Source: Algoriphagus sp. (GTDB lineage Bacteria; Bacteroidota; Bacteroidia; Cytophagales; Cyclobacteriaceae). From it: a stretch of 64,000 nt of DNA. Below, piece by piece: positions 17,270 to 20,977 of this stretch; positions within the stretch are counted from its first letter, which is position 1, and every line of letters starts with the position of its first letter. A program made the position numbers and the translations under genes. The stretch spans positions 1-64,000 of the forward strand of contig JAJTDZ010000001.1 in assembly GCA_021298245.1 (NCBI GenBank), given 5' to 3'. The notes below the pieces were generated by a model that worked only from the letters and a program-made list of their open reading frames with translations, had not been told where the DNA came from and ran no database searches.

Positions 17270-17608
17270 ATGAAAAAATCTGAAATCCAGTTTCACATCG
17301 AATTAGACACAGAAAATCTTCCCAAGGCCATTAGATGGGATGCCTCTGACAAAGAAATGCCTGGTTTAGAAGAAACAAAAAGTATAAGTGTGAATGTTTG
17401 GGACAATTTGAATCATGCCACCTTACGGATTGATTTGTGGACTGAAAGCATGTCGGTTGTTGAAATGAAGAGATTTTATATCGACATTCTTGGTGGAATG
17501 GCTCAGACTATATTGAATAGTACAGGAGATGAATTTATGGCAGAAGAAATGAAAGACCTCTGCGATAGACTAGTTAATCACGTGAATGAAGAGAATAAAA
17601 AAAATTAA
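17270..17608 (+). CDS. gldC: Gliding-motility associated protein GldC
   Basis: Full-length match in character to GldC (IRWDASDKEMPGLEETKSISVNVWDNLNHATLRIDLWT). Confidence 0.85.
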   Translation: MKKSEIQFHIELDTENLPKAIRWDASDKEMPGLEETKSISVNVWDNLNHATLRIDLWTESMSVVEMKRFYIDILGGMAQTILNSTGDEFMAEEMKDLCDRLVNHVNEENKKN

Positions 17609-17919
17609 TGAGATAGACCTCAAAAAATTTAAATCGAGATCTAAAAGAAAATTTTAAGCTAAAAATAGAATAATTCTAATTTTATAAAATTCTTAAAAAT
17701 TATGCTTAAATTTTAAATAATTAAAAATAGTTAGTAATTTATTTAAAATTAATAAAATAAAATCGTGTTTTTTAATAAAAAACAAAATTGATGATAATTT
17801 AACTTCTATTTTTTTTTCACCAAAATCAATAGAAAATTCCCTTTTTAACATAAATTTCGAAGAATTGAATCGTAAAAAGCTCATTTCAATAAAAACCAAA
17901 CTATTTTACAAATTAGCCT

Positions 17920-17988
17920 ATGAAAAATTTTACCAGAAAAATCTGGGGCTCATTTTACCTTGGTTTTCTCCATGGTTGGATATTCTAG
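17920..17988 (+). pseudogene. Orphan signal-peptide start (MKNFTRKIWGSFYLGFLHGWIF*) of the downstream TonB receptor, out of frame
   Basis: ATG at 17920 gives a Sec-like n/h-region, then hits TAG 17986-17988; the receptor frame opens nearby in another phase. Confidence 0.6.
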
Positions 17989-20758
17989 CAAGGAAGTTGA
18001 GATTGCAGGAGGTATTTCCAACCTATCTGTTGAGCTCGCGGAATCTACCATTTTGGGTCAAGAGGTTGTGGTTTCCGCCTCAAGAGTGGAAGAAAGCATT
18101 TTGAAGTCTCCAGTTTCCGTAGAAAAAATGGACATTATTGCCATCAGAGACGTGCCTCAAGCTACTTTCTATGATGCATTAAACAACATGAAAGGTGTGG
18201 AAATGAGTACCCAATCCTTAACCTTCAAGTCTTTTAACACCAGAGGTTTTAATGCCAACGGTAACGTAAGAACGGTACAATTGATTGACGGTATGGATAA
18301 CCAAGCTCCCGGGCTAAACTTCTCCGTGGGTAACATTGTGGGTATTTCTGAATTGGATCTTGAAAGCGTAGAATTGCTTCCTGGTTCGGCTTCCGCACTA
18401 TATGGACCTAATGCCATCAACGGTATCCTCTTGATGAATTCTAAAAACCCATTCCAATACCAAGGTCTTTCTGCCAATGTTAGAACAGGGTTAATGCATC
18501 AATCGGAAAGAACCACACCTGGTACTGGATTCTATGATTTTAGTGCTCGTTATGCTAAAGCATTCAACGATAAGTTTGCCTTCAAGATGAATGTTTCTTA
18601 CTTACAAGCAGACGATTGGCAAGCCAATGATTTCCGAGATCAGTCTTTATTAAATGCTTCTCGAATCAATAAGGGAGACAGAATTTCTAACCCTGCTTAC
18701 AATGGAGTTAACGTCTATGGAGACGAAACCAATGTCAACATGGTATCTGTGGCTCAAAGCATGATTGCTGCCGGTGCATTGCCAGCTGCTGTGCTACCCT
18801 TGATTCCGCAGACCTTTGTTTCTAGAACAGGTTATAAAGAATCTGATATCGCTGATTACGGAACTAAATCCTTGAAATTGAATGCAGCCTTGCATTACAG
18901 AATTAATGACCGTATCGAGGCCATTATTCAAGGAAACTACGGTTTTGGAACTACTGTGTATACTGGAGCGGATCGTTATTCTATTGCTAATTTCAAACTG
19001 GGTCAATACAAAGCAGAACTTAAAGGAGCCAACTGGTTCTTGAGAGGATTTACTACCCAGGAGCGTTCTGGTGATGCTTTTGCTGCCGGTATTGCTGCAC
19101 AAGGAATCAACGAAGCATGGAAACCAAGCAGTACCTGGTTTCCTCAGTATGTAGGAGCTTTTGCACAAGCTAGAGCAAGAGGTCTTGACAATGCTATGGC
19201 TCACGATGCCGCTAGAGCCTTTGCCGATCAAGGTAGATTACTTCCAGGTACAGCAGCGTTTGAAGCAGCTAAAAGTGCAGTAACAAGCCGACCTATTCCT
19301 GGTAATGCCTCTGGTGTAGGAGCAAGATTTGTGGATAAAACAAACTTGTACCACGTAGAAGGTTCTTACCAATTCACTAATATTACTTGGGCTGATTTTG
19401 TTGTAGGTGCTAACTTCAGAACTTATCAATTAAATTCTGAAAAGACCCTTTTTGCTACAGATGAAAATGGTGACGAATTCACAATCAAGGAGCATGGAGC
19501 TTATGTACAAGGAGCAAAGTCTATGTTTAATGATAAATTTAGACTGACAGCTTCAGCGCGTTACGATAAAAACGAGAACTTCAAGGGTCAGTTATCTCCT
19601 CGTGTATCAGGCGTATATACTGCAGGAACACACAATTTCAGAGCTTCTTACCAAACTGGATTCCGTATGCCAACGACCCAAGATCAATACATTGATCTGG
19701 TTACTCCTCAGGCAAGGTTGATAGGTGGTTTGCCTTTGTTTAGAACGCGTTACAACTTCACTGCAAACCCAGTGTATTCTCTAGCCACTGTAACTGCTTT
19801 TGGTGGAGCAGTTTTGGCTGATACCCAACCTTCTTCACCGGTGTATCAAGCTTCTATTGCACAAGCTACCCAGTTGGCGATCACTCAAGCGACCAATATT
19901 GTAACTCAACAAGTGCTGGCCGGTCAAATACCAGCTGCTCAAGCACCTGCTGCTATTGCTGCTTTGGTTCCTACCATCGTGCCGCAAATTGCTGCTCAGT
20001 TGGTACCTGCTAACGCTGCTTCAGCCAATAGAAGTAAGCTAGTTCCTTTCAAGCCTTCAGATTTCAAACCTGAAATCGTAAGATCTTATGAAGTGGGATA
20101 CAAAGGTTTGTTTGCCAACAAATTATTGATTGACGCGTATGCGTATTTCAACCGATTTGAAAACTTCATTGGTGGCCAAGTGTTGGTTCAGGATAAGAAC
20201 TTCAATCCTGCTAGCCCTGCTTCTGCCCTTGGTCTTAACCTACTAAGCGCCAATACAAGAAACATCTATTCTATGCCAGTTAATAGAACTGAGACGATTA
20301 ATTCTTGGGGTTGGGCTTTTGGTGCAGATTATAAATTGCCAAAGAATTATACCTTAGGTGGTAACGTGTCTTACAATACCTTACAAAACCTTCAGGAATT
20401 GACAAAAACTGGCTTCCAGCCTTCTTTCAATACTCCTGAATACCGTTATGTAGTTAACTTCGCTAACCGTGAAGTAGCTAAAAATGTAGGATTCTCTGTT
20501 TCTTACAGATGGCAAGGAGAATTTGTATGGCAGTCTTCTTTTGTAGCACCTACGGTTTCTTCACAGCAATTATCAGTGATGCCAGCGTTTGGCACCTTTG
20601 ATGCTCAAATGAGCTTCAAAATGAAAGCTTTGAAGTCAATTCTTAAAGTAGGTGGAACCAATTTGTTTAATAGCACTGGCTATAGACAAGCATGGGGTAA
20701 TCCTACCGTAGGTTCTATGTACTACGTAAGCTTGACCTTTGATGAGTTCTTGAACTAA
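17960..20758 (+). CDS. TonB-dependent outer-membrane receptor, apparently N-terminally truncated
   Basis: VFSMVGYSSKEVEI is the typical end of a carboxypeptidase-like regulatory domain, followed by plug (EVVVSASRVEE…LPGSASALYGPNAINGILLM) and barrel ending in F-x-N. Confidence 0.88.
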   Translation: MVFSMVGYSSKEVEIAGGISNLSVELAESTILGQEVVVSASRVEESILKSPVSVEKMDIIAIRDVPQATFYDALNNMKGVEMSTQSLTFKSFNTRGFNANGNVRTVQLIDGMDNQAPGLNFSVGNIVGISELDLESVELLPGSASALYGPNAINGILLMNSKNPFQYQGLSANVRTGLMHQSERTTPGTGFYDFSARYAKAFNDKFAFKMNVSYLQADDWQANDFRDQSLLNASRINKGDRISNPAYNGVNVYGDETNVNMVSVAQSMIAAGALPAAVLPLIPQTFVSRTGYKESDIADYGTKSLKLNAALHYRINDRIEAIIQGNYGFGTTVYTGADRYSIANFKLGQYKAELKGANWFLRGFTTQERSGDAFAAGIAAQGINEAWKPSSTWFPQYVGAFAQARARGLDNAMAHDAARAFADQGRLLPGTAAFEAAKSAVTSRPIPGNASGVGARFVDKTNLYHVEGSYQFTNITWADFVVGANFRTYQLNSEKTLFATDENGDEFTIKEHGAYVQGAKSMFNDKFRLTASARYDKNENFKGQLSPRVSGVYTAGTHNFRASYQTGFRMPTTQDQYIDLVTPQARLIGGLPLFRTRYNFTANPVYSLATVTAFGGAVLADTQPSSPVYQASIAQATQLAITQATNIVTQQVLAGQIPAAQAPAAIAALVPTIVPQIAAQLVPANAASANRSKLVPFKPSDFKPEIVRSYEVGYKGLFANKLLIDAYAYFNRFENFIGGQVLVQDKNFNPASPASALGLNLLSANTRNIYSMPVNRTETINSWGWAFGADYKLPKNYTLGGNVSYNTLQNLQELTKTGFQPSFNTPEYRYVVNFANREVAKNVGFSVSYRWQGEFVWQSSFVAPTVSSQQLSVMPAFGTFDAQMSFKMKALKSILKVGGTNLFNSTGYRQAWGNPTVGSMYYVSLTFDEFLN

Positions 20759-20808: not shown

Positions 20809-20931
20809 GTACCAAGTACAAAGTACCAAGTACAAAGTACCCTACCTGCTCAGGAAGGCAAGATCCTTCCGAAGCACCATTTACGTCATAACACTAACCC
20901 ATACTTTGTACATCGTACTTGGTACAAAAAA
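20805..20931. repeat. Repeat-palindrome element (14-nt tandem repeat GTACCAAGTACAAA x2 plus inverted copy)
   Basis: GTACCAAGTACAAA at 20809-20822 and 20823-20836, then GTACC; reverse-complement arm at about 20902-20931 (TACTTTGTACATCGTACTTGGTACAAAAAA). Confidence 0.75.
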
Positions 20932-20957
20932 GGCCATCCCACAGGATGGCCTTTTTA
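20926..20957 (-). terminator. Rho-independent terminator after the POT transporter
   Basis: GGCCATCC-CACA-GGATGGCC stem flanked by A and T tracts. Confidence 0.85.
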
Positions 20958-20977
20958 AAAGAAAAATTTATTGAAGT

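Follow-up and report, generated by a model that had tools for sequence, protein, structure and literature searches.

Does the TonB-dependent receptor gene at 17920-20758 of the window (the whole stretch of 64,000 nucleotides of Algoriphagus DNA that was analysed) lack its export signal and N-terminal domain in the organism itself, or was a piece of an ordinary gene lost on the way to the assembled sequence? An earlier note, made from the letters of the DNA, left three outcomes for this locus: a decapitated receptor, a phase or recombination variant, and an assembly deletion. The anomaly is real in the sequence, and most likely the feature is not real in the organism. With a probability of roughly 0.87, the gene of the organism encodes an intact, ordinary TonB-dependent receptor for nutrient uptake, of about 1010 amino acids, and the gap of 194 bases is a drop-out of the assembly. 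In the following, the window's own genome assembly is designated G000, the sister genome G002, and the receptor locus of the sister (G002:C19) L003.

The receptor gene and its missing block

As described in the earlier note, ATG at 17920 opens MKNFTRKIWGSFYLGFLHGWIF and this frame is ended by TAG at 17986-17988, giving a peptide of 22 residues. ORF analysis also confirmed that the receptor lies in a different phase (+1), open from 17924, in which TTG at 17960 is the first possible start, with 932 codons and a stop that ends at 20758. Upon comparison with the closest relative, G002 (97% amino acid identity), exactly 194 bases were found to be absent between 17952 and 17953, where the window reads ...GGGGCTCA up to the junction and TTTTACC... 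after it; the sister and all covered orthologs carry these bases. The absent block corresponds to codons 12-75 plus two bases of codon 76 (sister numbering), and because whole codons and two additional bases are missing, the receptor frame is shifted. The residues lost, from VCTVALFLSLGTSLALAQ... to ...NVNQAPP, comprise two parts of the signal peptide, its hydrophobic core and its cleavage site, together with all of the CarboxypepD_reg-like domain except the last strand, in agreement with the 60-80 codons of these two elements that were predicted to be missing.

Two parts of the gene survive on the plus strand: the first 11 codons of the native signal peptide (MKNFTRKIWGS; 17920..17952), identical in L003, and the rest of the receptor gene (17953..20758), which consists of the last strand of the N-terminal domain, the TonB-box region, the plug and the barrel, free of stops and indels. 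The Sec-like signal peptide previously read from ATG 17920 is therefore genuine as far as MKNFTRKIWGS, but its continuation from base 17953 (read as 'YLGFL') arises by reading the DNA for ...TLVFSMVGY... of the receptor itself in a wrong frame. The deletion had been placed tentatively at GGTTTTCT, which was mistaken: this string (17962..17969, plus strand, in LVFSM) is native conserved coding sequence, present in the intact orthologs L003, L009 and L012, and the junction lies about 10 bases upstream of it, at a position with no usable repeat. The flanks of the breakpoint are alike only in CTCA/CTCC.

The surroundings of the gene are in order. Its leader or promoter region (17836..17919, plus strand), conserved in orthologs as judged from alignment of the upstream DNA, is intact, and the segment 17836-17952 shows 97% identity with the sister. 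The upstream gene (17270..17608, plus strand), which we take to be GldC-like, is intact in the ORF list and is full-length and gap-free against G002. On the downstream side, the intergenic stretch at 20906-20974 is 130 bp shorter than in G002; this stretch adjoins GTACTTGGTAC-like repeats, and the difference is likely to be natural repeat variation.

In intact orthologs, a single frame encodes the whole TonB-dependent receptor: the signal peptide, the CarboxypepD_reg-like domain (PF13715), the plug and the barrel. Among about 100 orthologs from Algoriphagus, other Cytophagales and Chitinophaga (including 80 named loci), the N-terminal domain is present in every one that covers the N-terminus, and none of these shares the short form; two loci, L032 and L085, are cut by contig ends and their N-termini are not covered. 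Because all the orthologs covering the N-terminus carry the domain, its absence from the window copy is not a matter of chance. By Pfam search, PF13715 was detected at residues 32-116 of L003 (E=3.9e-20), where Plug was also found, while the 932-aa window product contains Plug (PF07715; residues 48-156, E=3e-13) without PF13715. In the covered orthologs of the same genus the signal peptide stands in the receptor frame; in the window its 11 remaining residues are in another frame. Among named matches, the closest come from Algoriphagus genomes and from Algoriphagus-like metagenome-assembled genomes. The sister receptor itself ends in ...SLTLMSS, where ...SLTFDEFLN is conserved; its frame slips in the last codons, possibly through a small sequence error in the G002 assembly.

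With respect to the family, intact orthologs such as L003 have the same order, signal peptide-PF13715-plug-barrel, as the TonB-dependent receptors of Bacteroidota with NTE (for instance, SusC-like Bt1763), and compared with such receptors (PF13715 and PF07715) the window copy is without most of the signal peptide and without PF13715. Unlike Bt1763, however, the receptor described here is not confirmed as SusC/RagA, since even the intact sister scored 102.2 bits against the NCBIfam cut-off of 368.25 for TIGR04056, and the window protein was not listed. The score for the heme/hemoglobin receptor (TIGR01785) was 79.6 bits against the NCBIfam cut-off of 316.85, and no SusD-like gene was seen next to the receptor gene. 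The receptor is an ordinary representative of a type already known.

Clean block losses across the draft genome

G000 is a draft of 2.48 Mb in 96 contigs and is 83% complete. The comparison covered 850 kb of G000 and 844 kb of G002, and about 324 kb of this sequence could be aligned. Within this aligned portion, 16 clean blocks of 63-217 bp (63, 75, 85, 90, 99, 108, 109, 117, 119, 123, 125, 135, 145, 159, 194 and 217 bp) are missing from G000 and none from G002 (one-sided sign test, 1.5e-5); the losses thus recur over unrelated genes of G000 and do not occur in the reverse direction. Inside the aligned pieces, no gaps of at least 50 were found in either direction, and no N was present in the 850 kb of G000 compared. 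Fourteen of the 16 blocks are located in sister ORFs of at least 135 aa, at least 13 being placed safely within coding sequence that is conserved (one ORF is short). Seven blocks shift the frame. Of the coding losses, seven have a length divisible by three, where chance alone would give about five, so that a small number of the 16 may be real or represent natural variation in length. At the block junctions, 0-4 bases are usually shared; in two cases the BLAST overlap is 7.

The losses are clustered, as contig C12 carries six of the 16 on 7.5% of the aligned bases (P=7e-4). These six (63-217 bp) are found within about 13 kb, at C12:2145-15329 (L206), where a gene that we take from its sequence to be MnmE and a metal ABC permease gene are broken, and four others are shortened in frame. 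Of the eight relatives searched, seven have the MnmE gene in full length, whereas G000 has it in two pieces; the permease gene, likewise in two pieces in G000, is full-length in five relatives. Others among the affected genes presumably encode a sugar kinase, a TolC-like protein and a penicillin-acylase-like protein. Polarisation with further relatives covered three cases: the window receptor, MnmE and the permease. A second TonB receptor of G000, on contig C85 (L132:1168-3469), is split in two frames by a clean loss of 125 bp and is undecayed; its counterpart in G002:C68 is an intact open frame of 813 aa. In addition, a CarboxypepD_reg-like protein is apparently split between the end of C22 and the start of C45 of G000, with the shared end sequence PTSYRIVGAARFELL.

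The simplest view of the receptor junction is that it belongs to this drop-out class. Of the three outcomes listed at the outset, an assembly deletion has much the strongest support, clean block losses being recurrent across G000. It counts against this explanation that sequences with no k-mer in common are not joined in a standard de Bruijn contig, so that such an artefact would require a further step, be it scaffolding, gap closing, consensus building or chimera formation. On this explanation, clean blocks of 63-217 bases would have dropped out at many sites of the draft and their flanks would have been fused with no N between them, presumably in assembly or scaffold processing, for example, where short gaps bridged by read pairs were falsely closed or stripped of N. 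We infer gaps of this type because the losses are one-directional, repeat-less, present at about one per 20 kb, clustered by contig, and found in core genes without decay. Assembly-made pseudogenes are a common and documented problem, with assembler, platform and coverage as the likely causes (PMC11017572), and the present case resembles them in that conserved genes are frame-broken but undecayed, many per assembly, and not so in close relatives. It is different with respect to the type of lesion, since that study deals with frameshifts and internal stops generally, whereas the losses described here are clean and of 63-217 bp.

Other origins of the short form

The remainder of the receptor, when compared with the sister, contains no gaps and no stops, with dN of 0.017, dS of 0.374 and dN/dS of 0.046, and these selection tests gave no sign of lasting relaxed constraint. 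The polarised changes (13 nonsynonymous and 29 synonymous on the window branch, 12 and 22 on the sister branch) do not differ significantly; seven of the 12 nonsynonymous changes of the sister are in the frame-slipped last codons, and after subtraction of these (5 and 22) the contrast is still one of small numbers. A simple count model leaves room for relaxed constraint over roughly the final 2-19% of the branch, an estimate resting on few clustered changes. No frame break was found in the other 34 genes compared in the window region. As the remaining frame is undecayed, the loss must be either very recent or not real; this absence of decay was first taken to argue for a very recent event and then, after the genome-wide comparison, for an artefact.

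A real and very recent deletion of 194 bp would make the gene a pseudogene in this strain, with the signal peptide and N-terminal domain gone, the frame shifted and no receptor at the outer membrane. Consistent with this possibility, the junction is clean and lies inside a contig of 142 kb in which the other genes compared are well formed, and the loss could be tolerated, the genome showing 19 other plug-domain matches. Such a deletion would be strongly loss-of-function: removal of the homologous domain from a Bacteroides SusC left no detectable growth on levan after 24 h, with 25-50% of the protein still made (PMC7782687), and in the present case the product would not be exported, because most of the signal peptide is lost besides the domain, leaving a plain loss of function. 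Nevertheless, a real deletion is unlikely in view of the 15 further clean losses in G000, several of them in core genes and none in reverse, and of the undecayed 932 codons, which confine a relaxed period to the short final part of the branch given above. The decapitated receptor of the earlier note is thus conceivable as biology on condition that it is very recent. That the deletion is real and segregates in a natural population as a recent loss-of-function allele of a conserved receptor, selected for instance by a phage or bacteriocin using the receptor, is more improbable still.

It is highly improbable that a short receptor is still made, whether translation begins internally at TTG 17960 or ATG 17972 or shifts frame out of the 22-residue leader. 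The downstream frame is indeed open and conserved, but neither route provides an export signal, since the signal peptide has its hydrophobic core and its cleavage site within the missing block, and no ortholog starts at these sites. If expressed as written, the locus would yield the 22-residue peptide and, in the most favourable case, a receptor lacking the signal peptide and unable to reach the outer membrane.

Outer-membrane genes of Bacteroidota are known to undergo cassette shuffling, and the earlier note had proposed that the N-terminal cassette might be switched on and off by phase variation or recombination. A silent cassette was rejected after protein and DNA searches of the own genome, which gave distant domain relatives only: the missing segment has no DNA match elsewhere in G000, where BLAST of the sister segment finds the two flanks only, and its best protein matches outside the locus (39-44% identity) are other proteins with this domain. 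Repeat searches around the junction in both the window and the sister gave no pair bridging the breakpoint, which disfavours slipped-strand or recombinase deletion, and a literature search on TonB-receptor pseudogenes formed by microhomology deletion gave nothing relevant. The exact junction pattern is confined to G000 among 76 genomes of the genus, being absent from the 75 others (G071 has one match with 2 mismatches). With neither an alternative cassette nor flanking repeats found, and the exact junction missing from the other genomes of the genus, switching is scarcely credible.

Consequences for reading this genome

Under the preferred explanation, a drop-out of the assembly, the receptor is one case among others. 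G000 carries about one clean drop-out (63-217 bp) per 20 kb compared, enough to give rise to false pseudogenes, truncated proteins and 'decapitated' receptors, and other anomalies of this assembly, such as missing domains, split genes and unusual starts, warrant a check against the sister genome before they are believed.
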